From assembly GCA_021296325.1 (NCBI GenBank), contig JAGWAR010000002.1, positions 1 to 64,000 of the forward strand: a stretch of DNA of 64,000 nt. Direction: 5' to 3'. The position numbers were made by a program, and so were the translations under genes. Positions 55,908 through 64,000 of this stretch are shown here, in pieces; the first letter of the stretch is position 1; every line of letters begins with the position of its first letter. The stretch comes from Alphaproteobacteria bacterium (lineage in GTDB: Bacteria > Pseudomonadota > Alphaproteobacteria > GCA-2746255). The notes under the pieces are model-generated. The model saw nothing but the letters and a program-made list of their open reading frames with translations, did no database searches and had not been told where the DNA came from.

Positions 55908-55965
55908 GTTTTGGATGTCGCAAATGAAGAGATCGTGGATTGCGTTTCCGGACCAATGGTCCACG

Positions 55966-55993
55966 GGTATACTAAAATTTCAACGCCTTGCAA
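55966..55993. promoter_or_regulatory. Overlapping divergent promoters of petABC and trmL-hemF
   Basis: On the minus strand TTGCAA (55988-55993), 16 bp, TATACC (55966-55971) points to petA. On the plus strand TATACT (55968-55973) with a weak TTTCCG -35 points to trmL. The two -10 boxes share the same bases. Confidence 0.45.
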
Positions 55994-56009
55994 AGCCCTA
56001 GCCCCGGCA

Positions 56010-56486
56010 ATGCGCCTTGCCCTTTTCGAGCCCGATATTCCCCAGAACGTAGGTGCGATCCTTAGGCTCTGTGCCTGCCTGGGCCTGCCGCTCGACGTGA
56101 TCGAGCCGTGCGGTTTCGTTTTCGACGACCGCAGGCTCAAGCGTGTGGCGATGGATTACCTCGACAAGGTCACGCTTTGCCGCCACGATTCGTGGGCCGC
56201 CTTCCTGGGCGCGCACGAACAAGCGGCGCAGGCAGGCCGGCTGGTGCTGCTTTCCACACGCGCGGAAACTCCCTATACGGCGTTCGCCTTTCGCGAAGAC
56301 GACACGCTGCTGCTTGGGCGTGAAAGCAAGGGCGTGCCGGAGACCGTCCACGAAACCGCCGATGCGCGGGTGAAGATTCCACTGCAAAGCGGCCTTCGGT
56401 CATTGAACGTGGCGCTTGCCGCTGCGATGGTGGCGGGTGAAGCGCTGCGCCAGACGGCGGGCTTTCAACCGGGAAACGGAACATGA
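56010..56486 (+). CDS. trmL: tRNA (cytidine(34)-2'-O)-methyltransferase, SPOUT family
   Basis: Methylates the wobble ribose of leucine tRNAs. The 158-aa SPOUT protein has [50 protein letters not shown], and the knotted C-terminal [29 protein letters not shown] 56010 ([13 protein letters not shown]) is used; the track start at 55911 is far upstream, inside the promoter. It is coupled to hemF by ATGA. Confidence 0.93.
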
Positions 56487-57328
56487 CGGCGGACGAGCAA
56501 AAAGCAAGGGCGAGTGCCTGGTTCGAGGCGCTTCGGGACCGGATCTGCGATCGCCTCGAGGCGATCGAGGCGGCCCATGACGGCCCCGGCGCCGAACGGG
56601 AGGCCGGCCGCTTTGCGCGCACACCCTGGCAGCGCGAGGAGGGCGGCGGCGGCGTGATGGCGATCCTCAAGGGCCGCGTCTTCGAGAAGGCCGGCGTCAA
56701 CGTCTCGACCGTCTTCGGAGAATTTACGGAAGCCTTCCGCAAGGAAATCCCCGGCGCCAACGAAAACCCCGCCTTCTGGGCAAGCGGCCTCTCGCTGGTC
56801 GTTCATCCGCGTTCGCCTCACGTGCCGGCGGTGCACCTGAACACGCGCCACATCGTAACGACGAAAGGCTGGTTCGGCGGCGGCAGCGACCTCACGCCCA
56901 CCTTCCCCGATGCGGAGGACACGCAGGCCTTCCACGCCGCCCTGAAGGCGACCTGCGACGGTTACGACGCCGATTGCTATCCGCGCTTCAAGGAAGCCTG
57001 CGACCGTTACTTCTATTTAAAACACCGGGACGAGCCGCGCGGCGTCGGCGGCATCTTCTACGACTATCTGGACAGCGGCGACTGGGAGAAGGACTTCGCC
57101 TTCACCCAGACCGTGGGCCTCGCCTTGCTCGACATCTATCCGGCGATCGTCGCCCGCCACGCACAAACACCCTGGACGGAGGAAGAGCGCCAAGCCCAGC
57201 TCGTCAAGCGCGGGCGTTACGTCGAGTTCAACCTGCTTTACGACCGCGGCACGAAGTTCGGATTGATGACCGGCGGCAACGTTGAGGCGATCCTGATGTC
57301 CCTGCCCCCCGTCGTCACCTGGCCCTGA
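56483..57328 (+). CDS. hemF: Oxygen-dependent coproporphyrinogen III oxidase
   Basis: Aerobic step from coproporphyrinogen III to protoporphyrinogen IX in heme synthesis. The 281-aa enzyme has [85 protein letters not shown] and [19 protein letters not shown]. It is coupled to trmL and faces cca tail-to-tail with no gap. Its place opposite petABC fits heme supply for respiration. Confidence 0.96.
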
Positions 57329-58567
57329 CTAGCCGACGAGTTCCTTCGCCTTTTCGAGGCAGGCCGCGCGGGAAGCCTGGAAGTCGCCGTCGATCCACCA
57401 GGCCTCGAGGCTTTCCAGAAAGGCCCCCATCTCGGGCCCCGGAGGGACGCCGAGCGCCTGCAAGTCTTTGCCTTTCAACGGAAATTCGACCGGCTGCCAG
57501 GCCCTGGCCTCGGCCAGCGCGGCCCTGGCCGCGGCGGCGAACCCCTCCCCTTGCCGCGCCCAGTGCAGCAGGGCCTCGTCCTGCACGCGCTCGGTCCCGA
57601 AGCCGTAAAGGACGCGGCGCACGTCCCGGGCGCGGTCGAACTCGGACGTGCCGATGGGCGAGGTGACCAGCGCCAGCAGGCGGCGCTTCTCGACGTTGGA
57701 AAGTTTGAGCCGGGCGGCAATCTCGCCTACCGCCTCGCCGGTCATGCGGTCCCGGGCCAGCAGGATGGCAAGCCTGCGGACGGGATGACCGCCTACCGTT
57801 TCCTTCTCGCAGGCAATGAGGGCGGCGAGCGCGTCCGTCTCCGTCGCTTCGGGCAACAGGCGGGCGAGGATATTTTCCGCGACCATCAGCCGGACGACAT
57901 CGGCGGCCGCATCGGACGCCAGCAGGCGCAGCATCTCGGCCCGCACCCGTTCGCCGGACAGGTTCGGCAACAGATGCGCAAACTCGCGGCAGGCCTGAAG
58001 CGCCTCGGCATCGGGCGCGGCGGTGCCGTATTCGGCATAGAAACGGAAGAAGCGAAGCAGGCGCAGCACGTCTTCCTGGATTCGCTCCTTCGCGTCGCCA
58101 ACGAAGCGCACGCGGCCCGCGTGCAAATCCCCAATCCCGTCGAAGAAATCGTAAAGCGCCCCGTCCGGGTCGCAGAAGACGGCGTTCATCGTGAAGTCGC
58201 GACGCGCCGCGTCCTCCTGCCAATTGTCCGTATAGACGACCTTGGCGTGCCGACCGTCGGTTTCGACGTCGCGGCGAAGCGTGGTGATCTCGAACGGCTT
58301 ATGATTGACGACCGCCGTCACCGTCCCGTGGGCGATGCCGGTCGGCACCGTATGGATGCCGGCCTTCTTCAGAAGGGCCAGCGCACTTTCCGGTGGTTCG
58401 GTGGTGGCGATGTCAACGTCATGGACGTCGCGGTTCAACAGCGCGTCGCGCACGCAGCCGCCGACGAAACGGGCCAGCGCGCCCTTTGCCGTCAGCGCTT
58501 TCAACACGGCCTGCGTTTCCGGCGCCGTCATCCAGGGCTGGGTTTCCATCTTCCCGGATGGCTGCAA
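57329..58567 (-). CDS. cca: CCA tRNA nucleotidyltransferase / poly(A) polymerase family
   Basis: A 412-aa class II nucleotidyltransferase that adds or repairs the tRNA 3' CCA. Motifs: ARFVGGCVRDALLNRDVHDVDIATT (catalytic DxD), TVPTGIAHGTVTAVV, ETLRR-like EITTLRRDVETDGRHAKV, RRDFTMNAVFCDPDG, and RIQEDVLRLLRFFRFYAEYG. Its best start is TTG 58567, since CGGAGGT lies 7 nt upstream; the ATG at 58549 lacks an SD. It is the last gene of DUF1285-Nudix-cca. Confidence 0.93.
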   Translation of the reverse strand: MQPSGKMETQPWMTAPETQAVLKALTAKGALARFVGGCVRDALLNRDVHDVDIATTEPPESALALLKKAGIHTVPTGIAHGTVTAVVNHKPFEITTLRRDVETDGRHAKVVYTDNWQEDAARRDFTMNAVFCDPDGALYDFFDGIGDLHAGRVRFVGDAKERIQEDVLRLLRFFRFYAEYGTAAPDAEALQACREFAHLLPNLSGERVRAEMLRLLASDAAADVVRLMVAENILARLLPEATETDALAALIACEKETVGGHPVRRLAILLARDRMTGEAVGEIAARLKLSNVEKRRLLALVTSPIGTSEFDRARDVRRVLYGFGTERVQDEALLHWARQGEGFAAAARAALAEARAWQPVEFPLKGKDLQALGVPPGPEMGAFLESLEAWWIDGDFQASRAACLEKAKELVG

Positions 58568-58582
58568 GCTAGGACCTCCGCC

Positions 58583-59182
58583 TCAATCGCGGAGGGCTTC
58601 GCAGAGATTCCTCAACATCCCCGCCGTCGCCCCCCAGATGTACCGATCTCCGTAGGGAATCGCATAGTAGTAGGCGCTTCGGCCACCGTATAGGCGTTCG
58701 TGGCGCAGGTAGTTCGCGGGTTCGAGAAGGTGGCCGAGCGGCACCTCGAAGACGTCGGCAACCTCGAAGCGGTCGGGCTTCAAGGGAAAGGGCGGCGTCA
58801 GCAGGCCCACCACCGGCACCACCTCGAAGCCGGTGCGGGTGAGGTAGGTGTCGAGGCGGCCGACGAGTTCGATGGCGGTGCGCGGAATGCCGAGTTCCTC
58901 TTCCGTCTCGCGAAGCGCGCCGGCCTCGGGGTCGCGGTCGGTGCTTTCCAGCCGGCCGCCGGGAAAACTGATCTGGCCGGCATGGTCCGCCAGATGGTCC
59001 GTGCGCCGGGTGAGCAGAACCGTCATGCCGCCCTCGCGTTCAACCAGCGGCACCAGCACGGCGGCCGGCCGCCAAGGCGCGGGCGGGGCGAGATGGGGCG
59101 AGAGCACGTGGTCGCCGCGCAACGCTGCAGGGTCCGTTTTCGGCTGGTAGGCGGCAAGCTGGGTGGAGACGTGGTAGCGCAT
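58583..59182 (-). CDS. Nudix hydrolase, CoA pyrophosphatase (NudL/YeaB) type
   Basis: A 199-aa Nudix protein. The Nudix box reads GRLESTDRDPEAGALRETEEELGI, preceded by HAGQISFPGG as in CoA-diphosphatases (UPF0035 motif). The catalytic role is cleavage of CoA or related nucleoside diphosphate derivatives. ATG 59182 overlaps the DUF1285 stop (TAATG), which decides the start; the track start at 59401 is a shadow. Gene order with DUF1285 and cca is conserved in alphaproteobacteria. Confidence 0.92.
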   Translation of the reverse strand: MRYHVSTQLAAYQPKTDPAALRGDHVLSPHLAPPAPWRPAAVLVPLVEREGGMTVLLTRRTDHLADHAGQISFPGGRLESTDRDPEAGALRETEEELGIPRTAIELVGRLDTYLTRTGFEVVPVVGLLTPPFPLKPDRFEVADVFEVPLGHLLEPANYLRHERLYGGRSAYYYAIPYGDRYIWGATAGMLRNLCEALRD

Positions 59183-59733
59183 TAGGGCGCCTCCCCGGCC
59201 GGGCCCAAGGCGAAGAAGGCGTTCTTGCTCCACACGCCGAAGGTGGCCTTCTCTTCGACGCCAAGCGCGACGAGTTCGTAATAGACGGAACGGACGATCA
59301 GCGCCTCGAGTCCGTCGCGCACCAGAAGGTAGGGCCGCGGTTCGCGGGTTTGCGGATCCTCCGTGACACGAATCGGATGGTCGGGCCCTGCCTCGATCCA
59401 TGTGTCCACGTTCGTGCGGAACTGAAGCACCCGGTCGCGGCTCCGCCCGGCGACGGCCAGCTCGACCGCCGTGAAGGGGGCGTCCTCGACCTCGACCCGC
59501 CCCTTCTCGACCGGCGTCTCGAGCCAGTAGACGCCGTCGGCGTCCCGTTTGAGCACGGTCGAGAACAGGCGAACCAAGGCCGGCCGCGCGATCGGCGAGC
59601 CCTCGTAATACCAGGTGCCGTCGCGGGCGATGCGGATTGCGAAATCGCCGCAGTCGCGGGGCACGCGCCGGGCCGGCCTGGCCGGGGCGCCTGGGTTCCG
59701 TTCCGGGGTTCTTTCCTGCGGTTGGTCGTTCAT
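59182..59733 (-). CDS. DUF1285 protein
   Basis: A 183-aa protein of the DUF1285 family, function unknown. Family features are CGDFAIRIARDGTWYYEGSPIARPALVRLFSTVL, DGVYWLETPVEKGRVEVEDAPF, LQFRTNVDTWIEAG, HPIRV and PRPYLLVRDGLEALIVRSVYYELV. The first 25 residues (QERTPERNPGAPARPARR) look disordered. It is the first gene of DUF1285-Nudix-cca. Confidence 0.9.
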   Translation of the reverse strand: MNDQPQERTPERNPGAPARPARRVPRDCGDFAIRIARDGTWYYEGSPIARPALVRLFSTVLKRDADGVYWLETPVEKGRVEVEDAPFTAVELAVAGRSRDRVLQFRTNVDTWIEAGPDHPIRVTEDPQTREPRPYLLVRDGLEALIVRSVYYELVALGVEEKATFGVWSKNAFFALGPAGEAP

Positions 59734-59823
59734 TCGGGCCCTTCCAGGGGGCTATACTTCCATCAAGTTACGCCTTTATAACGTAGGTCTTCCCAGGACA
59801 AAGACGAGCGGAAAGATCGGGCA

Positions 59824-61200
59824 ATGGAAGCGGGCCGCCTTCGCAAAACAAACGCCCAGACCGCCGGCGCCCATGTCCGAACCCTGGCCGAAACCTGCGA
59901 TCTTCTGCCGCTCCACGGGCTTAAGCGCGAACGCTACCCCTTCCTTCTGGAAAGCGCGAGCCAGGGCGGCCCCCGGGCGCGCTACGACATCCTGTTCGCC
60001 TTTCCCGAAGGGGAATTGAGTCTGCGCCCGGACCACCCCCTGGAAGGCGGCTTCCTCGAGGCCCTCGACCGTCAGTGGCGGGCGGCGCGGCTGCAGGAAA
60101 CGGCCCCGCCCCTTCCCTTCACCGGCGGCTGGTTCCTTTACCTGGGCTACGAACTGGCGGGCGAGATCGAGCCCACCCTTCGCCTGCCGCCCGCCGGAGA
60201 CGGCTTTCCCATCGCGGTGGCAACCCGCATCCCGGCCGCCATCCTCTGCGACCACGAACGGAACGAGACCCACCTCGTCGCCGAAGCCGGGCGGGCGGAT
60301 TTGCTGGACGCGCTTGAATCCGATCTGCGGGCGGCGGCGAACCGGCCCTGCCGCCCCGGAGGCGGCCCGTTGCTGGCCGCCCCCCTGCACGAAGACCGGG
60401 CCGAGCGCTACCTCAAGGGCATCCGGCGGGTGCAGGACTACATCGCCGCGGGCGACGTCTTTCAGGTGAACCTGTCGCGCCTTTGGAAGGGGCATTTGCG
60501 GACGGGACTTACCCATGCCGAGATTTACGCCCGTCTTCGCGAACGCAACCCCGCCCCCTTCGCCGGCCTTGCCGCGTTTGGCGATCGCGCGATCCTGAGT
60601 TCCTCGCCCGAGCGTCTGGTCGAGCGGCGCGGCACGCGTCTGCAAACCCGCCCCATCGCCGGCACAAGGCCAAGGGGCGAGGACGAGGCCAGCGATCGCA
60701 GCCACGCGCAAAACCTGCTGGCCCATCCGAAGGAGCGGGCCGAGCACGTCATGCTGATCGACCTCGAGCGCAACGATTTGGGCCGCGTCGCCATTCCGGG
60801 CAGCATCACGGTCGACGAATTCATGGGGATCGAGTCTTACGCGCACGTCCATCACATCGTTTCGAACGTGCAAGGCATGGTGCGGCCGGAAACGACGCCC
60901 GGCCAGATCATCCGCGCCGTTTTTCCGGGTGGCACGATCACGGGATGCCCGAAGGTGCGCTGCATGGAAATCGTCGCCGAGCTGGAAGGGGTGGGCCGCG
61001 GTCCCTATACGGGCGCGCTGGGCTATCTCAATCGCAACGGCGACATGGACCTGAACATTTTGATCCGTTCGATCCTGCGTGAAGGGGACGGCGTTTCGAT
61101 CCGCACGGGCGCCGGCATCGTCGCCGATTCGGTGCCCTTGCGCGAACTGGAAGAAACCCGCGACAAGGCCCGCGGCATGCTCCGCGCACTCGCCGGATGA
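59824..61200 (+). CDS. pabB: Aminodeoxychorismate synthase component I (PabB), with TrpE-like active-site motif
   Basis: A 458-aa chorismate-utilising enzyme, placed by ATGA coupling to pabC. Motifs: FTGGWFLYLGYELAGE, GDVFQVNLSRLWKG, FAGLAAFGDRAILSSSPERLVE, RPIAGTRPRG, MLIDLERNDLGRVA, HIVSNVQGMV and FPGGTITGCPKVRCMEIVAELE. PabB enzymes usually have Lys in PIKGT; this protein has Ala, as in anthranilate synthase TrpE. An N-terminal FLLES also resembles the TrpE tryptophan site. Length and the pabC neighbour favour PabB, but a TrpE-like activity cannot be excluded. Confidence 0.78.
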   Translation: MEAGRLRKTNAQTAGAHVRTLAETCDLLPLHGLKRERYPFLLESASQGGPRARYDILFAFPEGELSLRPDHPLEGGFLEALDRQWRAARLQETAPPLPFTGGWFLYLGYELAGEIEPTLRLPPAGDGFPIAVATRIPAAILCDHERNETHLVAEAGRADLLDALESDLRAAANRPCRPGGGPLLAAPLHEDRAERYLKGIRRVQDYIAAGDVFQVNLSRLWKGHLRTGLTHAEIYARLRERNPAPFAGLAAFGDRAILSSSPERLVERRGTRLQTRPIAGTRPRGEDEASDRSHAQNLLAHPKERAEHVMLIDLERNDLGRVAIPGSITVDEFMGIESYAHVHHIVSNVQGMVRPETTPGQIIRAVFPGGTITGCPKVRCMEIVAELEGVGRGPYTGALGYLNRNGDMDLNILIRSILREGDGVSIRTGAGIVADSVPLRELEETRDKARGMLRALAG

Positions 61201-62057
61201 CAAGGGCGGTTCCCAATCTGCTGGTGAACGGGTTGCCAGCGGGCGCCCTCCCGGCCGACGACCGGGGGTTGCGTTACGGCGACGGCGTCTTCGAGACGAT
61301 CAAAATCGGCGAGGGGGCGCCCGAGTTCTGGGCACGGCATCTGCGAAGGCTCAAGCTGGGCGGCGAACGGCTTGGCATCGAGGTCCCGGCAGACGCGACA
61401 CTGGCCAAGGAGGCAGGCGCATTGTTGCGCGGCAGCGGCGAGGGCGTGTTGCGCATCTGGCTCACGCGGGGCAGCGGCGGGGACGGCTACCGGCCACCGG
61501 CGGCGGCGCGGCCCACCCGCATCCTGCGCCTAGACCCTTTCCCGACGCAGCCGGAAGCGGCGCGCGCGCAAGGGGTCGCCATCCGTCTTGCCGAGACGCG
61601 GCTTGGGCAGAACCCGGCGCTTGCCGGCATCAAGCACCTGAACCGGCTGGAACAGGTTCTGGCCGCCAAGGAAGCAACGGAACCCGACATCGCCGAGGCG
61701 TTGATGCTGGACCGGGCCGGCCACGTGATCGAGGGCACGCGAACGAACGTCTTTTTTGTTATCGAAGGCGTTTTGACGACGCCCGATTTAAGCGAGGCGG
61801 GAGTCGCCGGCATTTTGCGCGAGGTCGTGCTGGAGGAAGCGGCGCATGCCGGATACCGGATCGCCATTCGCCCGGTCGAACCGGCCGAAGCCCACCGCGC
61901 CCAGGAATGTTTCCTGACGAACAGTCTTATTCATCTGTGGCCGGTGCGGCGTTTCGCAGAAACGTCCTATGACATCGGCGCCGTTACGCGCGAGCTGGCC
62001 CGGCGCATCGCGGCGCGCGTGCCCGGCGAACGCGGCCTGCCTGCCTTGCCGATGTGA
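61197..62057 (+). CDS. pabC: Aminodeoxychorismate lyase-like PLP enzyme (PabC)
   Basis: A 286-aa fold-type IV PLP enzyme, same family as IlvE and D-amino-acid aminotransferase. It has the N-terminal PADDRGLRYGDGVFETIKI, PLP-lysine GIKHLNRLEQVLAA, HVIEGTRTNVFFVI, and FLTNSLIHLWPVRRF near the end. PabC releases pyruvate from aminodeoxychorismate to give p-aminobenzoate for folate. The neighbouring pabB-like gene, sharing ATGA, is the main support for PabC over an aminotransferase. Confidence 0.88.
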   Translation: MTRAVPNLLVNGLPAGALPADDRGLRYGDGVFETIKIGEGAPEFWARHLRRLKLGGERLGIEVPADATLAKEAGALLRGSGEGVLRIWLTRGSGGDGYRPPAAARPTRILRLDPFPTQPEAARAQGVAIRLAETRLGQNPALAGIKHLNRLEQVLAAKEATEPDIAEALMLDRAGHVIEGTRTNVFFVIEGVLTTPDLSEAGVAGILREVVLEEAAHAGYRIAIRPVEPAEAHRAQECFLTNSLIHLWPVRRFAETSYDIGAVTRELARRIAARVPGERGLPALPM

Positions 62058-62135
62058 CGCTTGCCGGGAACCGGACGGCGACGCATGATAAACGGCGGGG
62101 CAACGTGGCGCCCTGAACCTTCGGGAGGATGCCCA

Positions 62136-62588
62136 ATGAACAATCTTTTCATCCCCGCCCTTGGCGGGATTTACGAGAAGCTTGCTTGTCTTTCCTATCC
62201 CCTGATCCGGATTACGGCCGGGCTTTTTCTGATCCCGCACGGGGCGACGAAACTGTTCGGATGGTTCGGTGGCGACCCGGCAAGGACCGCCGAATTCTTC
62301 AGCAAGATCGGCCTCGAGCCGGCCGGGCCGCTGGTGACCGCCACCGGCATCGTCGAATTCTTCGGCGGGATTTGTCTGGTGCTGGGGCTGCTCACGCGCC
62401 CGGCGGCGGCGGCCATCTTCGTGCTGCTGATCGTCGCCGTCGAACGGGTCCATCTCGCCAAGGGCTTCTTCATCTACAATGGCGGCTATGAGCACGCTCT
62501 GATGTGGGCGTTCATCGTCCTGGCGATCCTGTTCCGGGGCGCCGGGGCGTTCTCCATCGACCGCAGCGTCATCGGCAAGGAATTCTGA
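62136..62588 (+). CDS. DoxX family membrane protein
   Basis: A 150-aa protein of the DoxX family with four membrane helices: LIRITAGLFLIPHGATKLFG, LVTATGIVEFFGGICLVLGLLT, AAAAIFVLLIVAVERVH and HALMWAFIVLAILFRGAG. FNIPHG/KLFGWFGG is the recognisable family segment. Roles proposed for DoxX members vary (redox, thiosulfate or membrane protein complexes), so none is assigned. ATG 62136 has GGGAGG upstream; the track start at 62061 is earlier without an SD. Confidence 0.85.
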   Translation: MNNLFIPALGGIYEKLACLSYPLIRITAGLFLIPHGATKLFGWFGGDPARTAEFFSKIGLEPAGPLVTATGIVEFFGGICLVLGLLTRPAAAAIFVLLIVAVERVHLAKGFFIYNGGYEHALMWAFIVLAILFRGAGAFSIDRSVIGKEF

Positions 62589-62737
62589 GCGAAAAACCCA
62601 TCCCCGCGGCGGCCTGGAACCGGCCTTGAAATAAAATTTCGTGGGCGGGCTGGTTTCTTATCTTTATGCAACGATATAAATATCTTGTTAGTATCCGCAG
62701 TTACGCCAGGGGGATGGCGCCATGAGTGAGAAATAGT
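62589..62737 (+). promoter_or_regulatory. A+T-rich promoter region of korA with a small palindrome
   Basis: Between DoxX and korA the sequence turns A+T-rich. It contains GATAT-AA-ATATC (62673-62684), a perfect 5-bp inverted repeat that could include a -10 (TATAAA). A GGCC-based hairpin with trailing TTGAAATAAAATTT may terminate DoxX. The -35 is not clear. Confidence 0.35.
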
Positions 62738-64000
62738 ATGTCAACCACCGCATCAGCCAAGGTGGAACAGCCCGCTCGAAGCCCGCGTCAGGAACTGGAG
62801 ACGGCGGTGGTCCGTTTCGCAGGCGATTCCGGCGACGGGATGCAATTGACGGGCGGCCAATTCACGTTGACGACGGCTTTGGCCGAGAACGATCTTGCGA
62901 CCTTTCCGGATTTTCCGGCCGAGATTCGCGCACCCGCCGGCACGACCTACGGGGTTTCCGCCTTTCAGATCAATTTCGGTGCGCGCCGCATCAAGACCGC
63001 CGGCGATGAACCCGACGTGCTGGTCGCGATGAACCCGGCCGCGCTGAAAGTAAACCTGAAAGACCTGAAGGAAGGCGGCCTAGTCATTCTGGACACCGGC
63101 AGCTTTACCGAGCGCAATTTGCAGAAGGCGGGTTACGAAAAAAATCCGCTCGAGGACGAAACGCTTGCCCCGTACCGGCCGGTCAAGATCGACATTTCGC
63201 GACTGACCCTGGAAGCGGTGAAGGAGTTCGGCCTTTCCCAGAAAGAGGCGCTGCGCTGCAAGAACCTGTGGACGCTTGGTCTCATCTACTGGATGTACGG
63301 ACGCGACCGGAAGGCCACCACCGCCTGGCTCGAGCAAAAATTCGCCAAGCGCCCGGAACTGGCCAAATCGAACATCGCCGCCATGGACGCCGGCCATGCC
63401 TTCGGGGAAACGGCGGAAATGCCGGCCGAGATCGGCGGCTTCACGATCGGCGAAGCGGACATCGAACCCGGCCTGTACCGCACGGTGACGGGAAGCGAGG
63501 CGCTGGCCTGGGGACTGGTGGCGGGCGCCAAGCTGGCCGGCCTCAAGCTGACCTTTGCCTCCTACCCGATCACGCCGGCCTCGACGCTGTTGCACACGCT
63601 GGCGAAGTTGAAGGCCTATGACGTCGTCACCTTCCAGGCAGAGGACGAAATCGCCGCCGTGTGCGCGGCCATCGGCGCATCCTACGCCGGCACCCTTGGC
63701 GTAACGTCGAGCTCGGGACCGGGCCTGGCGCTCAAGATGGAGGCGATCGGCCTGGCCATCAGCGTCGAGCTGCCGCTGGTCATCGTCAATTCCCAGCGCG
63801 CCGGCCCTTCGACCGGCATGCCGACGAAAACGGAACAGTCGGACCTGTTTCAGGCGGTATGGGGCCGCAACGCCGACAGCCCGGTGGCGGTGGTGGCAAG
63901 CCGTTCGTCATCGGACTGCTTTGACGTGGCGATCGAGGCCGTGCGCCTTGCAACGAAATACATGACGCCGGTGATTTTGCTGACGGACGGCTACATCGCC
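62738..64000 (+). CDS. korA: 2-oxoglutarate:ferredoxin oxidoreductase alpha subunit (KorA), 3' end beyond window
   Basis: The ORF is open for 421 codons to the window edge and is not in the track because it is incomplete. It starts MSTTASAKVEQPARSP. The N-terminal gamma-type domain has VVRFAGDSGDGMQLTGGQF and PDVLVAMNPAALKVNL; the alpha (pyrimidine-binding) domain follows from about residue 245 with TGSEALAWGLVAGAKLAGL, FASYPITPASTLLHTL and SSSGPGLALKMEAIGLA. This gamma-alpha fusion is the KorA type used with KorB to make or use succinyl-CoA with ferredoxin. korB should lie outside the window. Confidence 0.92.
   Translation, partial: MSTTASAKVEQPARSPRQELETAVVRFAGDSGDGMQLTGGQFTLTTALAENDLATFPDFPAEIRAPAGTTYGVSAFQINFGARRIKTAGDEPDVLVAMNPAALKVNLKDLKEGGLVILDTGSFTERNLQKAGYEKNPLEDETLAPYRPVKIDISRLTLEAVKEFGLSQKEALRCKNLWTLGLIYWMYGRDRKATTAWLEQKFAKRPELAKSNIAAMDAGHAFGETAEMPAEIGGFTIGEADIEPGLYRTVTGSEALAWGLVAGAKLAGLKLTFASYPITPASTLLHTLAKLKAYDVVTFQAEDEIAAVCAAIGASYAGTLGVTSSSGPGLALKMEAIGLAISVELPLVIVNSQRAGPSTGMPTKTEQSDLFQAVWGRNADSPVAVVASRSSSDCFDVAIEAVRLATKYMTPVILLTDGYIA

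Follow-up and report, generated by a model that had tools for sequence, protein, structure and literature searches.

The PabB-like gene of the window, by which we mean the whole stretch of 64,000 nucleotides that was analysed, very probably encodes the PabB component of ADCS, which serves p-aminobenzoate and folate synthesis, and its product belongs to the PIAGT subclass, an already known group of PabBs without the catalytic lysine. Its predicted function, judging from the sequence, is the formation of ADC from chorismate together with an amidotransferase. Lysine-free PIAGT PabBs have been described before, structures of them have been solved, and NCBI curates a family for them; the window protein is an ordinary member, and its significance goes little beyond correct annotation. 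The initial annotation had pointed to an Ala in the PIAGT motif of a PabB-like protein next to pabC, which we confirmed (Ala279; Table 1), and had proposed either a PabB able to function without this lysine, or a bifunctional or misassigned relative of TrpE.

Table 1. Coordinates in the window of pabB, its motifs and pabC.
Feature	Position	Strand	Basis
pabB (ADCS component I, PIAGT lysine-free subclass, 458 aa)	59824..61200	+	NF006563, Pfam, 4GRH match, own clade
FLLES codons, residues 40-44; N-terminal site resembling the TrpE tryptophan pocket	59941..59955	+	sequence
PIAGT codons, residues 277-281; Ala279 in place of the PabB lysine nucleophile	60652..60666	+	sequence, alignment
GTITGCPKVRCM codons, residues 370-381; two cysteines characteristic of the A-type PabB clade	60931..60966	+	alignment
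pabC (aminodeoxychorismate lyase, PLP class IV, 286 aa)	61197..62057	+	NF004761, TIGR03461, PF01063

Family assignment and phylogeny of the window protein

The open reading frame starts with ATG, and its product carries the Pfam domains PF04715 (Anth_synt_I_N) and PF00425 (Chorismate_bind). The best equivalog model in NCBIfam was NF006563 (ADCS component I; 626.7 bits, cut-off 514), followed by the family TIGR01824 (PabB-clade2), for which the score fell just under the cut-off (393.5 versus 408.55 bits). In contrast, the TrpE equivalog models all remained far under their cut-offs (TIGR00564, 345.5 versus 517.7; TIGR00565, 196.9 versus 494.65). The top PDB match by sequence was the S. maltophilia PabB structure 4GRH (E 1e-139, residues 18-457 aligned). 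When an AlphaFold2 model of the protein (mean pLDDT 89.4) was used for a fold search, the first three structures were, as by sequence, 4GRH and the Bacillus PabB structures 7PI1 and 7QU9, all of which carry PIAGT in the PDB alignment.

Within the motif TRPIAGTRPR of the window protein, Ala279 aligns with the Lys of E. coli PabB (PIKGT), and we refer to PabBs with one or the other residue as A-type and K-type. The alignment column contains Ala in 50/50 A-type PabBs and 32/32 TrpEs, and Lys in 21/21 K-type PabBs. Moreover, PIAGT is kept in all 90 distinct A-type relatives examined, so that the Ala is neither a chance substitution nor a sequencing slip.

Phylogenetic analysis, which the initial annotation had suggested, placed the window protein in a firmly supported clade of its own, outside both TrpE and K-type PabB. 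In a large tree of 103 proteins (50 A-type PabB, 32 TrpE and 21 K-type PabB rows), each group lay on its own side of a branch, with SH-aLRT values of 100 for A-type PabB and 98 each for TrpE and K-type PabB. A careful tree of 35 proteins gave bootstrap/SH-aLRT values of 100/100 for A-type PabB, 100/97 for TrpE and 100/99 for K-type PabB. Placement of the window protein inside TrpE was rejected by the AU test (p = 0.00036), and so was its placement inside K-type PabB (p = 3e-5).

Several group-specific residues could be distinguished. Asn216 is Asn in 50/50 A-type and 21/21 K-type PabBs but Val in 32/32 TrpEs, Ser259 is common to both PabB types whereas 32/32 TrpEs have Gly, and His343 is found in 50/50 A-type and 18/21 K-type PabBs, with Met in 31/32 TrpEs. 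Thr275 and Gly369 are likewise shared by A-type with K-type PabB, against TrpE. Conversely, Ala279, His308, Leu311 and Thr371 are shared by A-type PabB with TrpE, against K-type PabB. The Lys/Ala position of PI[K/A]GT fails to separate PabB from TrpE; among the sampled sequences, the positions of Asn216, Ser259 and His343 are much better at telling TrpE from either type of PabB.

The N-terminal LLES, which had been likened to the tryptophan-binding site of TrpE, is indeed present as FLLES, but it does not serve as a TrpE marker, because its serine (Ser44) is common to all three groups (49/50 A-type PabBs, 17/21 K-type PabBs and 32/32 TrpEs). Glu43 occurs in 30 of the 50 A-type PabBs. At the positions aligned with Met293 and Phe294 of E. 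coli TrpE (numbered as in its feedback-resistant mutants), most A-type PabBs carry Ala and Gly. Structures of E. coli PabB also hold bound tryptophan, which is non-inhibitory (PMC7617670).

Gene neighbourhood, probable amidotransferase partner and proposed reaction

The pabB and pabC reading frames overlap by four bases, as ATGA, and pabC is thus translationally overlapping. The PabC protein exceeded the cut-offs of NF004761 (282 bits, cut-off 260) and of TIGR03461 pabC_Proteo (274, cut-off 177). A pabC-like reading frame directly adjoins A-type pabB on the same strand in 89 of 92 loci, and in two of the three exceptions the contig ends soon after pabB; pabA was found beside A-type pabB in 0/92 loci. 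The other neighbours in the window (55911-64000) are housekeeping genes, namely those for a SpoU methylase, HemF, a CCA-type nucleotidyltransferase, NUDIX, DUF1285 and DoxX proteins and a 2-oxoacid:ferredoxin oxidoreductase.

The host assembly (1.63 Mb, 91.7% complete) contains two chorismate-binding genes, the window pabB and a trpE in the trp locus on contig C35. Both LLES and PIAGT also occur in this TrpE, which most resembles the TrpEs of Methylobacterium (62%), Cereibacter and Sphingomonas, so that the host is most likely alphaproteobacterial. Dihydropteroate synthase (DHPS/folP) is also present, and no lysine-type PabB was found in this 91.7% complete genome. The initial annotation had named two observations that would speak against its reading, firm grouping with TrpE and the presence of a normal PabB in another place; neither was made.

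The suggested search for trpE and pabA elsewhere in the genome returned, besides the separate TrpE, one amidotransferase over the TrpG/PabA cut-off, encoded directly upstream of trpD on contig C35. The same inventory of one TrpE, one A-type PabB and one TrpG/PabA over the cut-off was obtained in 11/11 genomes checked (the host and ten of the same class). This single TrpG/PabA per genome suggests that the amidotransferase is probably shared by TrpE and the window PabB. A second amidotransferase could be missing from the host assembly, given its completeness; three relatives of the same genus, of which two are about 99% complete, likewise have a single one over the cut-off. Five genomes with lysine-type PabB served for comparison, and in two of these a second amidotransferase gene directly adjoins pabB. 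As a separate observation, one genome of the same genus (G143, contig C4:93833-94036) contains a 97-aa fragment of a chorismate-binding domain between the intact trpE and trpG; the fragment may be a remnant of trpE or the scar of a duplication.

By analogy, a route with two ammonia additions is the most likely one for the window PabB. The TrpG/PabA-type amidotransferase of the trp locus, common to TrpE and PabB, would deliver the ammonia, which would add to chorismate at C2 as the C4 hydroxyl leaves, to give non-covalently bound 2-amino-2-deoxyisochorismate. A second ammonia would then add at C4 while the C2 amine is expelled, to yield 4-amino-4-deoxychorismate, from which the product of the overlapping pabC would form p-aminobenzoate. 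This proposal draws on work on the PabBs of Bacillus subtilis and S. maltophilia, both of the broad PIAGT class. The study of S. maltophilia PabB by Bera et al. 2012 (doi 10.1021/bi301243v) reportedly points to two-ammonia chemistry via non-covalent 2-amino-2-deoxyisochorismate. For Bacillus PabB, the 2-amino-2-deoxyisochorismate route (Schadt et al. 2009) and an amphibolic TrpG are both documented, as cited in PMC8305020 and PMC3174152.

We consider it very unlikely that the window protein is bifunctional and makes anthranilate in addition to aminodeoxychorismate. The proposed 2-amino-2-deoxyisochorismate is also the intermediate of anthranilate synthase, and trace formation of anthranilate is chemically conceivable. 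However, all 11 genomes with A-type PabB have a dedicated TrpE, so a second anthranilate synthase is unneeded, and the PabB-specific residues are kept across the A-type clade; the normal TrpE of the trp locus leaves this part of the initial annotation without positive support. Misassignment of a second TrpE as PabB, owing to the neighbouring pabC, is extremely improbable: the protein shares PIAGT, His308 and Thr371 with TrpE and not with K-type PabB, but this reading conflicts with the AU test, the missed TrpE cut-offs, the PabB-type Asn216, Ser259 and His343 and the canonical TrpE already present, and would leave the genome without PabB despite pabC and folP. The proposal of a PabB working without the lysine, on the other hand, is supported by the separate clade, the pabC partner, the lack of a lysine-type PabB in the assembly and the dedicated TrpE elsewhere.

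Clade-specific cysteines, distribution and comparison with known enzymes

Two cysteines, Cys375 and Cys380 (GTITGCPKxRCM), are present in 90/90 distinct proteobacterial A-type PabBs, and both positions are Ala in nearly all TrpEs and K-type PabBs. The Bacillus PIAGT PabB has Ala and Thr there (TGAPKVRTM). It seems unlikely that the proteobacterial PIAGT PabBs use the cysteines for catalysis or regulation in a manner that has no counterpart in further lysine-free enzymes, for example Bacillus PabB. That one of them replaces the lysine as covalent nucleophile, as their invariance in the A-type clade and near absence elsewhere might suggest, is hardly credible, since the Bacillus enzyme indicates that lysine-free catalysis needs neither, and nothing points to either thiol lying at chorismate C2.

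In the class of the host, A-type PabB has a patchy distribution (9 of 142 sampled genomes), while among gammaproteobacterial hits it is common, and named relatives mostly come from that group. Horizontal transfer or repeated or differential loss are possible explanations for this pattern.

The S. maltophilia PabB (4GRH) matches the window PabB in length, domains, PIAGT and the GCPKVRC cysteines, with about 50% identity, and differs in coming from a gammaproteobacterial host, whereas the host here is most likely alphaproteobacterial. According to Bera et al. 2012, that genome is also said to have no dedicated pabA. PabB of Bacillus subtilis (7PI1, 7QU9) has PIAGT, a TrpG partner in common with TrpE and a reported 2-amino-2-deoxyisochorismate intermediate, but shows 37% identity, has its pabA/trpG adjoining pabB and lacks the two cysteines. 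The TrpE of the host (anthranilate synthase component I) shares the fold, PIAGT and LLES with the window PabB, whereas it is 36.5% identical, falls in a separate clade and, where the window PabB has Asn216, Ser259 and His343, carries Val, Gly and Met. Finally, E. coli PabB (1K0E, 8RP0) has the same fold, PabB-specific residues and pathway step, but belongs to a separate clade with 33% identity, and uses PIKGT with a lysine nucleophile and a dedicated PabA.
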